A stretch of 64,000 nt of DNA from Exophiala sp. HKRS030 (Eukaryota > Ascomycota > Eurotiomycetes > Chaetothyriales > Herpotrichiellaceae): the NCBI GenBank assembly GCA_023897205.1, contig JAHWDD010000003.1:3289665-3353664 (forward strand), written 5' to 3'. The notes below the pieces were generated by a model, which saw only the letters and a list, made by a program, of their open reading frames with translations, searched no databases and was not told the origin of the DNA. Made by a program: the position numbers and the translations under genes. Of the stretch, positions 1-62,474 are shown one piece after another. Every line of letters starts with the position of its first letter. The first letter of the stretch is position 1.

Positions 1-1526
1 CAAGTATTACAGGATTCTGGACCACCAGATATCTGGGAGCTACACGATCTTGACCCTGAAGTCATTCTGACTGATGTCTGCTGAAACACGCCACGACATA
101 GGGCATCCTTCTTACGAGGTTATAAGTCAGAAGAACAGTTCAACCACTAAGTACTAAGTAGTAATACTCATAATAAGCATTGGCTGCCATGTCTCCCTGT
201 GTCTGTAAAAGAGGACAGCCAAAATCCGAAATTCCTATAGAGATATAAAGTACTAGTAGTTCATCAACAATACTCACAGCCCAAAGCTCTACTGCTCATA
301 CTAAATATTCTTTTCGCTAAAGTAAACTCATGGAGGCGTTCGGCCTATTCGTAGACTCTACAGTATACTATCGACGCTCAAGAGGACCAGGCACGGCGCT
401 AGTTCTTTTTCGGCATCCACAATGGCGCATTTGATGTTCCCAGCTCTGCGCCACTCCCGTTAAATTCTTTAATGCTTTCCCCTAGAATCATTTATTCTAT
501 ATATACTGCGGCTCTAGGAACAACATTACTATGATATACTTAGTACTCATAGAGATATTAAAGTCCTGAAAAATCTGATAGCCAGTAGTAAGTACCAAGT
601 ATATAATAATGATAACCCGGTCAATACCGCGTAGTCTCTATCTATATAGGAGCTGTATATATCAAGAATACTAGTAGTGAATAACTATCTCTGTTCAGGT
701 GGCTAGTAACCAGCCTTAATAAGTAAAGACTACAAAAGCTTGATAAGACCTCTTGCAGTTGGCTAATGACTGTTCTAACAGGATCTTTAGACTTAGTATC
801 AAGGTCAATCAATACTCAGTCTATACTAGTACAGTAACAAAATCTATGAAGCCTAATGGGTCTATATCTACATTATGTTCGAAGTAGCTATAAGTAATCT
901 CTTTCCTGATATCTAACCTAGCCCAGGCGTTAGCAGCGGAGTCACAATTCATACAGATTCTTCGTAGTGGCATGCATTAAGTACCTGACAGTCTTCGAAA
1001 GGACTACCGGCAATTGTCCTTGAGCATAGGAACAACTTCTAGTTCTCTGTGAAGAAGTACTTACTAAGTACAAGTCGCGCGCCGCCCGAGGACGATTTCT
1101 TTGCAGAAGCAGCCCTGCCTCTCCGGGAAGTGAACGAGACGTATTTTCCTAAGCGGTCCTAAGTCCTCGATAACGCTAGAAAATGTCTCCTGTAGATAGA
1201 TAATAATGACAGCACACTCGCTCAGATAAGACCAGTCGAGGTATTAAGCGCTGCTTTAATATTAAGGCCCGTATACGAAGTACTTAGATTTCAGAAGCAT
1301 ACAGGAAACAAAAAAGGGACTGCCAGTATACATAATTATGGAAACGCTAAGTAAGGATTCATACAAACGGAAAAACTGATGGAGTGACGGTATGTTGTAG
1401 TATGTTGTGCATTGACCTAGGTCGAGTAACTTTCTTCTCTAGTTGACGCATTACTTTCCCAAGTTCAAACATACACCATACCACAGCAAATATATCAAAA
1501 TCAAAAAAGAAAAGAGCATCATCATG
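1..1526. other. AT-rich, stop-dense relic region without an intact gene
   Basis: No open frame of useful length is present on either strand. TA dinucleotides and short TAGTA/AAGTA words are very frequent, as expected after repeat-induced point mutation of a transposon, though no terminal repeats or recognisable pol motifs survive. The first 84 bases read open on the plus strand and end in TGA with a protein-like composition (…DIWELHDLDPEVILTD…), so they could be the tail of a gene starting outside the window. RIP is an inference from composition by eye only. Confidence 0.45.
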
Positions 1527-1652
1527 CATCCCAGGTGGGACTCGAACCCACAACTATTGACACAGTTAGTCTCAAAGGCAGCGCGTGTAATGGAGGATAT
1601 TGCTTACCCTCCAGATTAGAAGTCTGGCGCGCTACCATTGCGCCACTGAGAC
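1527..1652 (-). tRNA. tRNA-Arg (anticodon TCT) interrupted by a 54-nt intron-like insert in the variable loop
   Basis: Read from 1652 downward, all tRNA elements are present: acceptor GTCTCAG pairing with CTGGGAT, D stem GCGC/GCGC, anticodon stem CCAGA/TCTGG around loop CTTCTAA (anticodon TCT), and T arm GTGGG-TTCGAGT-CCCAC, with discriminator G. The A box (TGGCGCAATGG) and B box (GGTTCGAGTCC) match consensus. Pol III terminators follow as A-runs on the plus strand at 1510-1513 and 1503-1508. The anticodon loop is complete without an intron at the usual 37/38 site. Instead 1554-1607 interrupts the variable loop. Removing it gives loop AGGTT and a 72-nt tRNA, with U48 able to pair with A15. 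A pseudogene is possible, but both promoters and every stem are intact. Confidence 0.85.
1554..1607 (-). other. Putative spliceosomal-type intron inside the tRNA-Arg gene
   Basis: On the minus strand the insert starts GTAAGC, holds CTAAC (complement of 1565-1569) with the branch adenosine 12 nt from the 3' end, and ends ATAG. These are the three signals of a short fungal mRNA intron, and 54 nt is a normal fungal length. Splicing would give TCTGG-AGG|TT-GTGGG, a five-base variable loop. The insert also contains TGAGAC and CGCGCT, which could pair with or derive from the tRNA 5' half, so an inverted partial duplication is an alternative origin. Confidence 0.55.
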
Positions 1653-4489: not shown

Positions 4490-5368
4490 ATGCAGCTCAA
4501 GGATCAGGTTGTGCTAGTCACTGGTAAGTCTTCTCGTCTGCTATTCGAGTGAAAAATGTGCAGTAAAATCCGACTTCGAAGCTCCGACATTCAAGAAAAT
4601 TAGGGACTCAGTATCAGAGACTAAGTTACGAATTTATCAGGCTCTTCCCGCGGTGTTGGCCTAGCTATAGCCCGAGCATTTTGCAACGAAGGCTCAAAGG
4701 TAGTACTCAATTACTACAAATCCGATCCAGATTTCGTCGAACGACTAGCCACAGATATTGGTGCATTCGCATTCCGAGCCGATGTTACCAAAAAGGAAGA
4801 AGTCCAAACACTTTTCGCTGCCGCCAAACAGCATTTCGGCAGCCCGATCACGACGGTAGTCAACAATGCCATCATCGGTGATTTCGCCTTCAACGGCGAC
4901 GCGAGACCCAAAATCGCGGAGCTCACCTGGTCACATTTCGACTCGCAATTGCAAGGTTTTTTGAAGGGCACGCTCAACACGACCCAAGTGGCAATACCTG
5001 GGTTTGAAAGCGCGGGATTCGGTCGAATCATTAATATTGGGACGAATCTCTTTCAGAACCCAGTCGTGCCGTACCACGACTATACGGCGGCGAAAGGCGC
5101 TCTGTTGGCCTTTACGAGGACATCTGCAGCTGAGCTTGGCTCGAAAGGCGTGACAGTAAACCTCGTCGCTGGAGGTCTGCTCGATGTCACTGATGCTAGT
5201 GCGAGCACTCCCAGAGAAGTCTTCGATCATATCAAAGCCGTGACACCCTTGAGAAAGGTGACGACACCGGACGATCTGGCTGGAGCTGTCTTGTTCTTCG
5301 CCAGTCCATGGGCAAGTGGTGTGACAGGACAGCAGATTGTTGTCGATGGTGGTCTGGTGATGAATTGA
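4490..5368 (+). CDS. Short-chain dehydrogenase/reductase, FabG-like (253 aa)
   Basis: Two exons, 4490-4523 and 4641-5368, are joined across a 117-nt GTAAGT…ATCAG intron that splits the glycine of the cofactor motif. The spliced protein begins MQLKDQVVLVTG and continues SSRGVG, the TGxxxGxG NADP(H) site of classical SDRs. Further motifs are VNNA, and the catalytic Tyr and Lys in YHDYTAAKGA. The C-terminus ends VTGQQIVVDGGLVMN, typical of the 3-oxoacyl-ACP-reductase-like subgroup. At 253 aa it is the usual classical SDR length and lacks a signal peptide, so a soluble oxidoreductase is inferred. The substrate cannot be told from sequence. It is convergent with the MDR gene, the stops lying only 54 bases apart. 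Confidence 0.9.
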
Positions 5369-5422
5369 AGCTCGGGGATGGTCGGGGCCTGGCATTTTGC
5401 AGAATAGATATAAATGAGTCAT

Positions 5423-6488
5423 TCATAGTTTCGAATTAAGTGTCTCCGGTTGTACTTCGATCACAGCCTTGCCATAGACTTTCCGTGCTGCAAGATCATC
5501 CAGGGCCTTCGGTATGCTCTCAAGTCCAGAGTATGTTCCATAGATGACGGGCTTGATATCACCCGTCGCAAGAAGCTCATTGAGTTCTCGCCAGATCAGT
5601 TCGTTTTCTTCAGGATTTCGCCGTCCTGTCTCACCATATCTCTGGAAGACTGTTAGCTCGTGCATCTCCAGCACATGAACAGAAACTCACGTATCCCAAC
5701 AGCTTTGCTCCTCTGAGAAGAACACGATTCATAGCCAAACTCTCCATCTTACCCCCTAGCCCTGCAAAGCCAGCAATGACAACATTACCACCAAATTTCA
5801 AACAGCGGATACTTTTCGCCACAAGCCCGACAGTGTCATAGACAGAATCCACGCCAACATTGCCAGTCAACTTCAGAACCTCTTTCTCCCATCCCTCCTG
5901 ATCATACCTAACCACACCCAAGACACCCAATTTCCTCACGGCCTCAGCCTTCGATTCACTCCCAACAGTCCCAATTACCTGTGCACCGAGTGCCTTTGCG
6001 ATCTGCACAGCTGCCACTCCCAACCCTCCGGCGGCAGCGTGAACAAGAACAATTTGACCTTTTTCGACCTTAGCCACCCGGGCTAGCGCTCCATAGCTCA
6101 CCGGTGCTGTAGCCGCCCCTAAGCCTGCTGCCTCTCTCAATGACCATCCAGTCGGGACATGCTGCAAAGTCTTCACCGGCACAGCAATTTGTTCCGCAAA
6201 ACATCCGACGGCTGAGCCCCAGACTCGGTCGCCAGGTTTAAACCCAGAGTCCGATGGAGCAGAGGCCACAATACCGGCATATTCAAGACCTAGGTTGAAC
6301 GGAGGTTTAACGAGGCCGATGTGATTATTTTGATGAAGGCCTCGGGCGTATAGCAGATCGACGTGGTTTAAAGCGCTGTGGGTTATGGTCACCAGAGCCT
6401 CGTCGGGTTTCGGTTTTGGCGCTGGGATGTCAGTGACTTTTAATTCCGAGTTCGACTTCACGAATTGGGTGATCTGTATGGCTTTCAT
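5423..6488 (-). CDS. Zinc-independent MDR oxidoreductase, quinone-oxidoreductase-like (338 aa)
   Basis: Exons 6488-5691 and 5641-5423 are joined across a 49-nt intron (GTGAGT, branch GCTAACA, CCAG). The N-terminal GroES-like fold (about residues 1-130) is followed by a Rossmann domain with AAAGGLGVAAVQIAKALGA, the AxxGGVG-type NADPH site of quinone oxidoreductases. The structural and catalytic zinc ligand patterns of classical alcohol dehydrogenases are absent. The C-terminal helix region contains LNELLATGDIKPVIYGTYSGLESIPKALDDLAARKVYGKAV… (cut here), the usual family ending. Likely role: NADPH-dependent reduction of quinones or enones in the cytosol. The gene is complete and shows no frame break. 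Confidence 0.9.
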
Positions 6489-7853
6489 CTTCGAAGAGTT
6501 GGCAAGGATAACTGTTGGGTGTCTTCAATGGCGTTTATGGTTGCTGTAATGCTTCAAAAGCCTGAATCAGATTTTCCAATGTCGCTTCCTTGGTCGCGGT
6601 CGTCAGGTACCTGCAATGAGAGTGACGGAGGTGTTCAGAGGGACAGATGACAATAATAGACTCCGAAATGGGAAAGAGTATTGTTATATTCGTGCTAGTA
6701 CTCAGTCCCTACAGAAGCCGTCATATTGTGTGGCTATCTTCGTTCGGCCAGGGTCTGTAAGAGAGCCGAGGTCCGACGAACGCTTGAATTCCGAGGAGGA
6801 AGTCTGTTCTCTTCACAACAGAAACACCATTTACAGGGCCTGAAACATAGGAGAGATCCAATGCTGATGACATGCTGTTATGAACAAGCATTAGACAGCA
6901 TTTCTACGGGAGCGGAGTTTTGGAAGTAGTTGATACAGACAGATAGTTTGACAGAATCTCTCGGGAGTTCAATGTGGGCCCCATAATCGCGAAGTCCTGG
7001 GTAAACAGAGATACGATGTCTACTGGATTATTCACGACAGCAGGCGACAGGCAATATTCATGGCATCAAAACGTCCGGTCGGCAGATGGTAGTGAGGAAA
7101 ATAGGAACACCGGTTATCGGCTTTCAAGTAAGCCTGGATCCTGGCAATATCTGGTACTGGAAAGAGACGACGGCTGGCCGAAAGCCATTTCACGCGTTGA
7201 GATACGTGGCTGTAGGGGAGGGCTGTGATACTTTGGATGTTCTTGCTCTGAGAGTCTTGTTCTCTCGCATTCATGCTCATGCCCAAAGGGTTCTGTGTAA
7301 GATGGAGCGCCGATTTGGTCAATTCACACGTCGAGAGCGCTTACGCTCAAGATCATTTTCGGAGCTGTGTTGCCGTTCTGACGCCCTCTTAGAATATCCG
7401 GATCAGGCAAATCAGTCTGAAAACCCGAAGGAGAAATTGTGGACTTTTAATGGTCGGTGTCGTTACCTTGTCACCATTCCATAAAGCGACCACGCGATCT
7501 TTTCGTGGCGTTTCATTCCGAAGGCAACGGTGGGCAGAGTCGTCATGTCTTCACAGTCTCACAGATTGTTGAAATGGAAGAACACGACAGTCCCAAGTAT
7601 AAATCGAGTCACCTCGGCGTCGTATCGTCGTATCAATGTTCCACAATTTGCTGGCATAAGAAACGAGTGACAGAAACGCCGAGGGCGCTGGACAGGTCAA
7701 TGTGAGTGAACTCTCAATTGCGCTGAGATGCTTCAATGCGCGATTTCCATTTCCATAACAGATGTCTATGCTTGTTGTATATACAATGACCCTCAGCCCA
7801 TTTCATTGGGAGGCACTCTTGTGACCCTGCATTTTCTCCACGTTCACCAAGCC
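6489..7853. other. Intergenic spacer, no confident gene
   Basis: About 1.36 kb upstream of the MDR gene and downstream of ATP18. Several 60-130 codon frames exist on both strands (largest 7086-7484 plus), but none shows a domain, a consistent splice pattern or homology I can recognise, so none is called. Confidence 0.45.
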
Positions 7854-22918: not shown

Positions 22919-25314
22919 ATTGATACTGGGCGAAGGTGTACAGTTTGTGCGAGGTGGTGATGGACGAGAGATTGATAGATGATGTCTGTTGTCTGTTGAA
23001 GAGAGCTTTGATGACATGAAAATATGTGGATATGACTGGTGGAGGTGTTGTGGTGGTGGGGGAAGTGATACGTTCAAACGAGTGGGAGGAAGGTAGGGTC
23101 ACATGATCTTATAAAAGTATTTACTCCCACGACTCCGTACCTCGGTCGTGTGCCTAAGCGTGCCTGCTCCAACGAGTGCTGACCAAGTGCCCCGTGCCTA
23201 AGGTTCTCTAATAGGCTTTCACAGTCAGACTTAGGCACGTCAGGCACGTTGGTTGATGGATTGGGTGCTTTGACCGCTTAACGTCTACTCCGTACTCCTC
23301 CAAGCCCAGCACGTGCCCCGCAGTCACGAGTGACTACTTGGTAGACAGCCACGACAGCTTCAGCCTCCCATTCTTGTGTTCGTTGTTGACAGGAATGACA
23401 GCTTCTTGATTGATTGTTTTGTGAACCTTGGTAATCAAAACTACGTATGTGGTTACAGTAGCGCAGAGATAGAGTTGCAATTTACTTTGAGCTTTGAAGG
23501 ATACGCGGACACGCAAATCGGATCGTCACGCATTTTGATAGAGTGGCACGCGTGGTTCAGAATGGGTGAATGGTTGTTGTGATGACTTTGGAACGTGACT
23601 GATTGAGTTTTGGGTAGATACCTTGGTCGGCACGGCACCTACACGGTAGAGTATTAGGAATACTGACTCCTGAGTCCTGGGCATGTTTCAGTGGTAGGAG
23701 GCTGTGCATTGATATATACGGACGTGACGGAGTAGACTGTAGTACGGATTACTCTGTACTTGAGCACAATTCACATTTCATGCCGGGCATGTACTGTACC
23801 CGATAGGTATGAAGGCTTGCGGAGTGTACGGAGTAGAGTGCGGAATCCTTAGGGTGGGCGGGCACCTGGCGGGCACGAGTTTGTGGCAAGACTATACCTA
23901 GGCACCTAGCTCCGTAGTAGGTACTCTACTGTAAGTGCCAAGTCACAGTGATGCCCAAAAAGCCGATCAACAGTAAAAGAAGCGATCAAGTCTCCAGCGC
24001 AGCCACCTCCAGCTCTACCAAACATGGTTAGAGGACATTCAGACTCGACATTGCACCAATTGTCAGGATTGTCAGGATTGTCAGGAGATGAACTACCCTC
24101 GTTTGTTGTTTTTAGTCAAGTGTCTTTCAAGTGTCTTACCTCGAGGCTCCAGGTGTCTGACCCAAATACCTAACCATCCGTGCCATCCAGCGCCATCCAG
24201 TGCCATCCCTAACCTAACCTAGGCACGCTAGGCATACCCACGATACCCTAGGACCAAGGTATCCAGGGATTCGTTTAATACGGGGCACCCCAAGAGCCTC
24301 ACGTGGAGCCTCCTACGCCTCCTCAACGGGGGAGCAACACATTCCACCTGTACCTGCGCCCCAGGCCCATAGGTACCCAACTTAGCAAGTTACTGGTTAG
24401 TCAGGCACTCTGGGGACTTCGCCGTGATCACCCAAGGCTAGGGCTAAGGTAGGCCCAGCGATGCCCGAGGAGCCCTTACCTACTCCGTACACACACTCTT
24501 GAGTCTTCTCAGCACCGCGCGCCCACTGACGGTGGATTATTCACAACGCGTATTATCAAACTCGGGTGGGTTGGGTGGTCCACGGTGGTTGCACCTCGAC
24601 TCACACCCACTCCCACTCCCACTCCCTCTCCCTCACCCTCACCCAACCAACCACTTACCAACCTTTTCAACTCAACCCGCCTGCACCCTGCACCCTGCAC
24701 CCGCACCTTGTACGCTGCGCACTGCACCCAGCGCCTGCATCATCCAGCACTCCGTACCTCTCCTCACTCACTCACTCACTCCTCATTCCTCGCCGTCCTT
24801 CTCAATAATAACAACATCTCGTCTTACCGCACCCCAAATTTCAATCAATCCTAACCACCACTCAACCATCTGGTATCCTTTGTATCGCCTTGATCCAGCA
24901 TACCCTACTGTCCAAATCTCACTTATCCAGCCTGGGGACCTGGAAATCGTCATCTCGAATACCGGCTTGTTGGAGCGAATCTCCCCATCACCTTTGGATA
25001 CACTCGGCCCTGGAAAGGGGTCCTGGCGATCAACTCTGATCATCCCATTATTCCACAATTCTACGCAAAGCCACTCTCCCACACGTCCCTCACGACCCAC
25101 CTTTGACTTCTTGACTCTTGACTGTTGTCCGTCACTTGTCTTGGAATCCTCTCGTACCTGTTAGGTGCCTGTCGTACCTCTCTTCCTATCCCTTAGTCCT
25201 CTGGCACCTTGGACAATCCAATCCATACAACCCTTCCCAAAGAAATTGTCCTCCCAATCGTCTCTTCACACCCTGCCCTCGGACGACCAAGCCTCAATTT
25301 CACATAACATCAAC
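22919..25314. other. Long intergenic spacer with short tandem repeats
   Basis: About 2.4 kb between the divergent MED31 and Pal1 genes. It contains GTCAGGATT repeats at 24060-24086, GCCATCCAG repeats near 24178-24208, a CCTAGG palindrome at 24218, and pyrimidine-rich CTCACTC and CCACTCCCACTCC tracts around 24600-24790 upstream of the Pal1 start. Frames at 24499-25164 are low-complexity artefacts of these tracts. Confidence 0.5.
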
Positions 25315-26990
25315 ATGGCACAAGCTGCCCCTGCGACTGGTGAGTCGAAATCTCTTCGCTCTTCTCCCTTGCCTTGCGCCCATTTCTTTGTCATCTGGCG
25401 CAACAACTGCTTCTTCCCGACATCAAAGACATCGCTGAGACTGACCCTGGTGACAACCACAGATCGCGGCCCTACAATCCTCGCATCCAACAATCCTTTT
25501 CGTAGTCGTGTGTCCCCAATCTCTACCACTCCATCAGCTGCTCCCAACAGACCCGTCAGCACCAACCCATTCCTCGACGCCTTCGAGATGGTCGCTTCAC
25601 CTCAAAAGTCCTCACCTACTGGTGCCGAAAAACCCCTTGTAAAGTTGGCTTCCCCGGAGCATACCATTGATATATTTGTAAGACATATCTCAAACCTCCT
25701 ACTGAACAATACAGCTTACCACTTCAGGCATCTTTGAACATCAACGAATCAGGAAACTCTGTTCCTCGAAGAGAGAATGGTGCCCCTGCCACCAGAATGG
25801 GCCCTCCTCCTCGGCATGCCACCAATCCTACCGACGAGGAGCACCGTCGACAACGAAGTCGGAATCGCCCTCCAAAAGAATTGGATATCTTCGCCGATCC
25901 CTCCCCTCTTGACAAAACTCGTTCTCGCGATAGACGACCTCCGCGACGAAACTCCGAGTCGTCTATCCGAGACAAACCAAGCACTCTGGACCCCGAAGCA
26001 GAAAAGAGACGTCGTGAAAGAAAACTTCGCGAGGAACGGGATGGTCGTAGCTCCCAGAGGTCTAAGAAACCCAGTAGGAGATTGGACATTATCGATAAAT
26101 TGGATGTCACCAGCATTTACGGTACAGGATGTAAGTATGTCCCATTGCTCAAAGACTACATGTACTAATTCATTCAAGTGTTTCATCACGATGGTCCATT
26201 TGATGCCTGCAATCCTCATCGTAACCGGAAAGGCGCTCGCCAGGCTCCCATGCAAGCCTTTCCAAAAGGATCTGCGAACATGGCTTTGGGAGGATCCGGC
26301 CCAGTCAATTCAAACCTTAACCTGGATCAATATCATGGCCGCGGCCAGGAAGCGCACAATGACTACAACGAGGCAGTTGTCGTAGACGCAGATGCCGAGT
26401 ACATGCGCAGACCTCAAACTGCACGAGCTGCCAGTTTCAACCCAACCACCCGGACGGAACCTGTTCATGGAGATCCCTCTGCCGGCCTCGGGACAAGTAC
26501 TTTCCTCGAGGGAACCCCTGCCAGCAGAATTGCCATACAACGCCGAGAAAGCGAATTCGAGGCCGCCCAGAGGGATGAGGCCAACGGACTCTCACGTAAA
26601 AAGAGTTTGGCCCAACGCATCAAATCTGTACGACCAAAGGTCGGGGATGTACCTCGTGTCACTTCCCCTGCACCTATTACTAGTCCGACCAGCCCGCTAG
26701 GTTCGGGCAAACCTGATCAAAATACAGCCAACCCATTCTTCAAGGACTATGACCGCGACTACGAAAGGAAAGGAGCGCAGATCGCTTTTGCTGAGGAGCA
26801 GAACAAGACTGGACGACCAAGAGCACCTAGTAGCCCCAAACGTGGATTGGGCTTGGAAAGGAAATTGACAGCAGAAAGTGCGACTGGGGAGGAACCCAAG
26901 AGTGTTGCTGGAGGGTTTCTGAATCGTATGAAGAGCATGAAGGGCCGGAGCAAAACTCGTGAGAGGCGCAACACTGAAACTTCGGCATAA
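25315..26990 (+). CDS. pal1: Pal1-family cell morphology protein (484 aa)
   Basis: Four exons, 25315-25339, 25463-25677, 25728-26130 and 26179-26990, with introns of 123, 50 and 48 nt. Splicing the third intron creates the family hallmark IYGTGLFHHDGPFDACNPHRN. Two NPF motifs (NNPFRSR, STNPFLDAF) lie near the N-terminus, the type bound by EH domains. The middle is a charged RDRRPPRRNSESS region, and the C-terminus carries a KSLAQRIKSVRPK motif and a basic end (KSMKGRSKTRERR). Fission yeast Pal1 keeps cylindrical shape and binds Sla2; budding yeast Pal1 joins early endocytic sites via Ede1. The same cortical/endocytic role is inferred. No frame breaks. Confidence 0.92.

Positions 26991-59956: not shown

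Positions 59957-62474
<2,518 letters not shown>

Follow-up and report, generated by a model that had tools for sequence, protein, structure and literature searches.

The usual teaching is that nuclear tRNAs are spliced by protein enzymes, separately from the spliceosome, and that a tRNA gene carries no more than one intron. Here we ask what to make of a tRNA-Arg(TCT) gene of Exophiala sp. HKRS030 that is broken, away from the usual tRNA intron position, by 54 nt with the donor, branch site and acceptor of an mRNA intron: is this insert a spliceosomal intron, would the spliceosome remove it, and does the gene stand alone in its genome?

The tRNA-Arg(TCT) gene and its insert

The gene lies in a stretch of 64,000 nt (the window; C3:3289665-3353664) of an assembly of 59.8 Mb in 50 contigs. 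As the first-pass annotation had claimed, a complete tRNA-Arg(TCT) gene of 126 nt occupies positions 1527..1652 on the minus strand: Rfam gives a tRNA match at these positions (RF00005, 58.6 bits), the sole one at or above the gathering score in the whole window, and a cloverleaf parse revealed the anticodon TCT and acceptor, D, anticodon and T arms that are all intact. An ARAGORN run on the window called no gene there. Exon 1 (1608..1652, minus strand; 45 nt) holds the 5' strand of the acceptor stem, the D arm, the anticodon arm, whose loop CTTCTAA is unbroken by a 37/38 intron, and bases 44-46 (AGG); exon 2 (1527..1553, minus strand; 27 nt) holds bases 47-48 (TT), the T arm, the 3' strand of the acceptor stem and the discriminator G. 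The A box TGGCGCAATGG (1635..1645) and the B box GGTTCGAGTCC (1538..1548), which fit the consensus of the Pol III internal promoter, are present in the sequence as described earlier, and so are terminator-like T runs (TTTT and TTTTTT; 1503..1513) about 14-24 nt past the gene, all on the same strand; cloverleaf, boxes and T-run terminator together are those of a Pol III tRNA gene.

Between the exons, at 46/47, sits the spliceosomal-type insert (1554..1607, minus strand). Rechecking its coordinates bore out what had been reported: 54 nt that start with the 5' splice site GTAAGC (1602..1607), contain the branch-site box CTAAC (1565..1569), whose branch A (1566) lies 12 nt from the end, and finish with the 3' splice site TAG (1554..1556). 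Removal leaves the variable loop AGGTT and makes an A15-U48 pair possible, again as proposed; the two tRNA-Arg(CCT) genes seen in the genome (L036 and L044) have this same loop. A canonical TSEN tRNA intron was considered and rejected, given that the insert sits at 46/47, not 37/38, and leaves the anticodon loop unbroken; a group I or II self-splicing intron was likewise rejected, the insert having only 54 nt and Rfam, at the gathering score, showing only the tRNA in the window.

We judged the insert against a model of the mRNA introns of this genome, trained on protein-guided spliced alignments of actin, actin-related, tubulin and CLU genes. (Ab initio training by frame bridging was abandoned; it drifted into coding sequence and yielded only 10 candidates.) From 35 candidate introns we kept 27, namely 22 that shift the frame and five in which every frame contains a stop. 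Homologous pairs from duplicated genes are among them, so that they are not fully independent. At least two of the eight dropped candidates appear genuine (L075, 147 nt; L065, 48 nt), and three kept introns (leave-one-out scores -1.1, 5.1 and 7.3), left in the model, probably have misplaced boundaries. The typical mRNA intron has GTAAGY, CTRAY (at most 36 nt from the end in 22/27) and YAG (at the end of 21/27) and is 48-141 nt long, with 16 of the 27 at 48-61 nt; leave-one-out scores ranged from -1.1 to 21.4. By each sequence feature that marks a U2-type intron here, the window insert resembles this set. It runs GT..AG with the host 5' splice-site consensus, GTAAGC being among the two commonest donors (5/27); its branch A lies 12 nt from the end (mRNA introns: 10-31 nt, median 13); its length falls in the host range; and its exact excision restores the gene, as holds also for the tRNA-Ser gene and two tRNA-Asp genes described below. 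Its score of 21.2 would rank 23 of 27 and was reached by none of 200,000 random window segments and none of 20,000 shuffles. A register shifted by one base also restores the tRNA; it begins with GG, ends with TA and scores -7.5.

Scanning both strands of the window for GTAWG, CTAAY and YAG at a length of 48-59 nt gave four matches among 1,534,560 combinations of start and length: the insert itself, one at 61190, and one place counted twice (19072/19068). The segment at 61190 (plus strand; 55 nt, GTATGT..CTAAC..TAG) lies in a region with an open Forkhead/FHA reading frame and is probably an ordinary mRNA intron.

A second tRNA-Arg(TCT) gene and the need to read AGA

Counting the other tRNA-Arg(TCT) copies had been proposed as a check. 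Targeted searches of the 59.8-Mb genome with a 301-bp probe, with the 19-nt T arm (at most one mismatch) and with the 29-nt D/anticodon half (at most three mismatches) found one more gene, at G000:C3:1653175-1653312, and it is likewise interrupted. A probe made of the spliced 72-mer returned the window gene alone, in two pieces, and is thus insensitive, since it missed this sister gene; that failure and an incomplete list of tRNA genes leave room for a third, diverged tRNA-Arg(TCT) gene.

The exons of the sister match those of the window gene base for base except in the acceptor stem; there, 6 and 5 positions differ, and the pairing is preserved as judged by eye. The sister has an ordinary 37/38 intron of 8 nt and, at the same variable-loop junction as the window gene, a 58-nt insert (GTAAGA..CTAAT..TAG) that scores 19.6 on the host model. 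The two inserts have diverged in the part from donor to branch box, whose alignment is matched or bettered by 177 of 2000 shuffles: the signals stayed and the remainder drifted. The insert is therefore not brand new. One neighbour is common to both loci, a gene 64% identical in DNA over 1.9 kb that is differently placed and oriented, so that the two tRNA-Arg(TCT) genes probably lie in old duplicated segments.

The genome at large holds conserved genes (actin, actin-related, tubulins) in diverged pairs, an example being window 4637-6491 and L099 1675-3599, and the 30 Mb published for E. mesophila is about half the size of this assembly, which together make an old genome duplication or a hybrid likely. 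Among named proteins, E. mesophila gives the best match to a photolyase (73% identity) and to a CLU protein (87% identity) of the window, with other Chaetothyriales close. Elsewhere in the window, at 24448-26385 (plus strand), three open stretches (238, 190 and 215 codons) succeed one another in the same frame with single stop codons between them, perhaps a decayed gene or a mobile element.

AGA codons are in use, accounting for 154 of the 11,451 codons counted in frames open over at least 300 codons, a set that includes a few overlapping loci. Since both genes found are interrupted and AGA is used, at least one of the two should work, which it can do only with the insert removed or tolerated, and with no intron-free tRNA-Arg(TCT) gene found, a spliceosomal step would be needed for AGA to be read. 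The first-pass annotation had left a choice between spliceosomal processing and a dead gene, into which an mRNA intron or other sequence had been inserted while other tRNA-Arg(UCU) genes supplied the function. An intact copy might lie unseen, given the incomplete inventory and the insensitive 72-mer probe, and a truncated tRNA-Asp copy described below, probably dead, carries an insert of this kind too. Against a dead gene stand the targeted probes, which find just two tRNA-Arg(TCT) genes, both interrupted; exons that are identical outside the acceptor stems, where pairing is kept; and the use of AGA. On these features of the DNA, processing by the spliceosome is the better supported of the two, and we regard a dead gene as very unlikely.

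Predicted folds of the two precursors have a feature in common. In both, the D arm GGUAGCGCG is predicted to pair with the intron, with CGCGCUGCC in the window gene and CGCGUUACC in the sister, a pairing kept across two base differences through wobbles. The intron stretch CGCGCTGCC of the window gene (1577..1585, minus strand) is the complement of D-arm GGTAGCGCG, and the sister has CGCGTTACC at the matching place. The exon sequence GGAGG beside the donor is also predicted to pair with the intron in both precursors, and the predicted fold of the window precursor contains no cloverleaf and holds the donor GTA inside a 9-bp hairpin. The duplex of exon 1 and intron as a whole was as strong in 2 of 1000 shuffles for the window gene and in 16 of 1000 for the sister. 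A comparable duplex was absent from the tRNA-Ser gene and the two tRNA-Asp genes, for which 808, 561 and 770 of 1000 shuffles were as strong. If the modelled folds hold, the D-arm pairing may stop the precursor from adopting a tRNA fold ahead of splicing; alternatively, it and the hairpin around the donor may impede splicing.

Inserts of the same kind in tRNA-Ser and tRNA-Asp genes

We searched the genome for a branch box followed by AG and then a B box, with the reversed pattern as a control. With CTAAY as the branch box there were 10 matches (control: 3), five of them in tRNA-Arg, tRNA-Ser and tRNA-Asp genes, one in a sub-threshold tRNA fragment (L087, the same as L046) and four in no tRNA recognised by eye or by Rfam; with CTGAY there was no further tRNA insert (9 matches; control: 9). 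Because the search used the branch-site pattern, CTAAY is partly selected for in the tRNA-Ser and tRNA-Asp inserts, while their donors and phasing are unselected. In one tRNA-Asp gene (L082) the pattern landed by luck on the 37/38 intron.

A tRNA-Ser(GCT) gene (L086) has a 52-nt insert (GTAAGC..CTAAC..CAG) in its variable arm, between TTCCTTCGGG and AGC, at a place where an uninterrupted tRNA-Ser(GCT) gene (L004) reads TTCCTTCGGGAGC. Two tRNA-Asp genes are interrupted at two different positions of the D arm: L082 by 56 nt between TCATGA and TTTCC, and the first copy at locus L081 by 49 nt between TCTAGTG and GTCATGA. Once these inserts and the 37/38 introns (14 and 30 nt) are taken away, the two genes give an identical mature tRNA-Asp and thus prove each other's exon boundary. 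Both loci were recognised as tRNA by eye; Rfam called neither a tRNA, at the gathering score or at E up to 5.

Locus L081 (G000:C2, ~904,950, minus strand) also contains a tandem second copy, a 5'-truncated tRNA-Asp whose anticodon stem is interrupted by 52 nt (GTATGT..CTAAT..TAG); the first copy lacks this insert. The second copy begins abruptly, with ..CTAATGCTCATCTATCAATCAG running straight into TTTCCGC, a junction that is also that of the 3' splice site of the L082 intron, and the fetched locus holds no 5' exon for it beyond that of the first copy. It is probably dead, and possibly arose by duplication of an exon unit or, as a dead copy, gained its intron recently. Close to the tRNA-Asp pair, inverted repeats (L081 946-1211) weakly match a microRNA family at 59.9 bits, the gathering score being 211, and are most likely just a repeat.

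The same kind of intron occurs in a U6 gene of this genome. There are two U6 matches, L053 (G000:C5:2143871-2144024) and L052 (G000:C5:5283494-5283592), one with a 53-nt GT..CTAAC..CAG intron after AGAGAAG and the other without an intron. Scoring with the host model revealed that the tRNA inserts look like real introns of this genome: the six have scores of 21.2, 19.6, 22.5, 19.6, 18.8 and 18.7 (ranks 23, 18, 27, 18, 15 and 15 of 27), lengths of 49-58 nt and a branch A 10-13 nt from the end, and the U6 insert scores 16.8 (rank 10 of 27). Random window segments did as well in 0-2 of 200,000 cases for each tRNA insert and in 5 of 200,000 for U6. GT..AG ends occur in none of 35 canonical 37/38 introns of this genome. 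TTTT was found in none of the seven introns and in 6 of the 27 mRNA introns, a sample too small for a claim.

Quantification of the tRNA genes places these inserts in context. At least 42 genes exceeded the Rfam cut-off when 63 of 1707 first-look candidates were scored, and the cloverleaf parse took in these 42, the sub-threshold matches L045 and L046 standing outside it. The variable region is 4-5 or 11-15 nt long in 40 of the 42, and 59 and 63 nt in the two tRNA-Arg(TCT) genes; a 37/38 intron is present in 35, the sister tRNA-Arg(TCT) included. Together with L086, L082, the first copy at L081 and a tRNA-Gly gene (L097), the last three found by eye, this incomplete census comprises 46 seemingly intact genes, five of which have an mRNA-type insert, plus the truncated tRNA-Asp copy. 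Phe, Lys, Trp, Pro, Glu and other isotypes are missing among the matches scored from the 63 of 1707 candidates. L097 contains a 37/38 intron alone and was missed by Rfam too, so a missing isotype is by itself no proof of a hidden spliceosomal intron. Our search patterns gave no match in viral and genome contig collections, as expected for those collections, and the 20 5S rRNA matches listed (47 of 2940 candidates scored) are each 120-124 nt long and without an insert.

Standard tRNA scans can misread or overlook genes interrupted in this way, as Rfam did at the two tRNA-Asp loci. ARAGORN read the anticodon correctly in one of the five unspliced genes and misread it in four; with the insert removed it was correct for three of five, giving Arg TCT for the window gene, Ser GCT, and Asp GTC for the first copy at L081, and it still misread the sister tRNA-Arg and L082. 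Published counts are 38 tRNAs in E. mesophila and 64 and 73 in two other Exophiala (PMC8709033), and from 41 to 45 across the five assemblies tabulated in the E. spinifera paper (PMC7412599); for E. dermatitidis, tRNAs for all but Trp, and 26 tRNAs with introns, are given in PMC4463862. A hidden intron could, as a guess, lie behind the missing tRNA-Trp of E. dermatitidis.

Explanations and known systems

The anatomy of the gene, the host-type splice signals, the exact restoration of a mature tRNA and the recurrence of such inserts are all present in the DNA, and on this ground we consider it very probable that the window insert is a U2-type spliceosomal intron in a nuclear Pol III-type tRNA gene and is removed by the spliceosome. 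The internal A and B boxes would direct Pol III transcription of the gene, the spliceosome would recognise GTAAGC, CTAAC and TAG in the precursor and remove the 54 nt, and the joined exons would then fold into tRNA-Arg(UCU). From the sister precursor, the 37/38 intron would be taken out separately by TSEN and ligase, and the tRNA-Asp genes and one tRNA-Ser gene would follow the same spliceosomal route.

The explanation that fares next best after a dead gene, and which we hold to be slightly less probable again, is a tRNA-type intron at an ectopic position, of the Crenarchaeota kind in which the tRNA endonuclease cuts a bulge-helix-bulge. With the register shifted by one base, both tRNA-Arg genes could pair 4/4 bases of the central helix, counting wobbles, and the sister also has 2-3 inner pairs; however, the outer helix has 0 bp in both genes and both registers, and the shifted register forfeits GT..AG, while bulge-helix-bulge splicing is not known to need GTAAG, CTAAY or YAG. 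Tested for the archaeal-type motif, the window gene has 3/4 central pairs and no outer or inner pairs; the tRNA-Ser gene has 0/4 central pairs and the tRNA-Asp genes 2, 1 and 2 of 4, and none of the tRNA junctions tested has a bulge-helix-bulge with an outer helix of at least two pairs. A published account limits eukaryotic tRNA genes to one intron and treats noncanonical positions as archaeal (PMC8450103).

Retention of the insert as a giant variable arm would recall class II tRNAs, which have longer variable arms, and the unspliced window gene is still recognised as tRNA-Arg by Rfam and by ARAGORN, which places a spurious 39-nt intron in it; but such inserts occur at five tRNA positions (one in the truncated copy), and at those in the D loop and the D stem a retained insert would break the fold. 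The inserts also have splice signals and no hairpin in common, so that retention is most improbable. An assembly error or contamination is hardly to be believed, the loci being separate, on contigs C2, C3 and C5 (5.4-8.2 Mb), with host-type splice signals and a sister gene whose insert has diverged, and no sign of either having been found in the one assembly searched.

Returning to removal by the spliceosome, inserts in tRNA-Arg, tRNA-Asp and tRNA-Ser genes imply that spliceosomal introns entered tRNA genes several times in this lineage. More tentatively, and with rather less than even confidence, we propose that the spliceosome may be obligatory for tRNA-Arg(UCU), tRNA-Asp(GUC) and part of tRNA-Ser(GCU), often in addition to TSEN, and for isotypes missed by the scans too; that introns would have been gained repeatedly, some of them recently, since the insert position differs between paralogous tRNA-Asp genes; and that the D-arm pairing may hold the precursor open until splicing. 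If spliceosomal removal is true, the tRNA precursors made by Pol III can be spliced at several positions, and decoding would be tied directly to mRNA splicing through essential tRNAs whose maturation needs the spliceosome. These genes would also make a tractable natural system for intron gain, since their exon boundaries can be read almost to the base from the mature tRNA sequence.

Among the titles and abstract openings listed by full-text searches of an open-licence library, which covers few subscription papers, none described a tRNA gene with a spliceosomal intron. According to a 2017 paper, U3 and U6 were the sole small structured RNAs then known as often interrupted by introns, and mRNA-type introns in fungal U6 snRNA genes are credited there to Tani and Ohshima 1989 and Canzler et al. 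2016 (PMC5832005). In this genome, two U3 snoRNA matches (L061 and L062) have CTAAC and then CACAG or CATAG shortly before the U3 body, which suggests the known 5' intron of fungal U3.

The inserts differ from canonical nuclear TSEN introns, which also interrupt tRNA genes, in lying at 46/47 rather than 37/38 in the window gene and in having GT..AG ends. With the noncanonical introns of archaeal tRNA genes, as described in PMC8450103, they share the use of several positions and of more than one intron per tRNA gene, but the tRNA-Arg genes here lack a bulge-helix-bulge with an outer helix and have mRNA-type signals instead. Like the introns of fungal U3 snoRNA, they are mRNA-type introns within a structured non-coding RNA, whereas tRNA is another gene class, absent from the 2017 list in PMC5832005. 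The likeness to the fungal U6 introns, present here as well, is that of a short GT..branch..AG intron in a Pol III gene for a small structured RNA; the differences are that the host RNA is a tRNA and that the intron, lying between the A and B boxes, widens their spacing.
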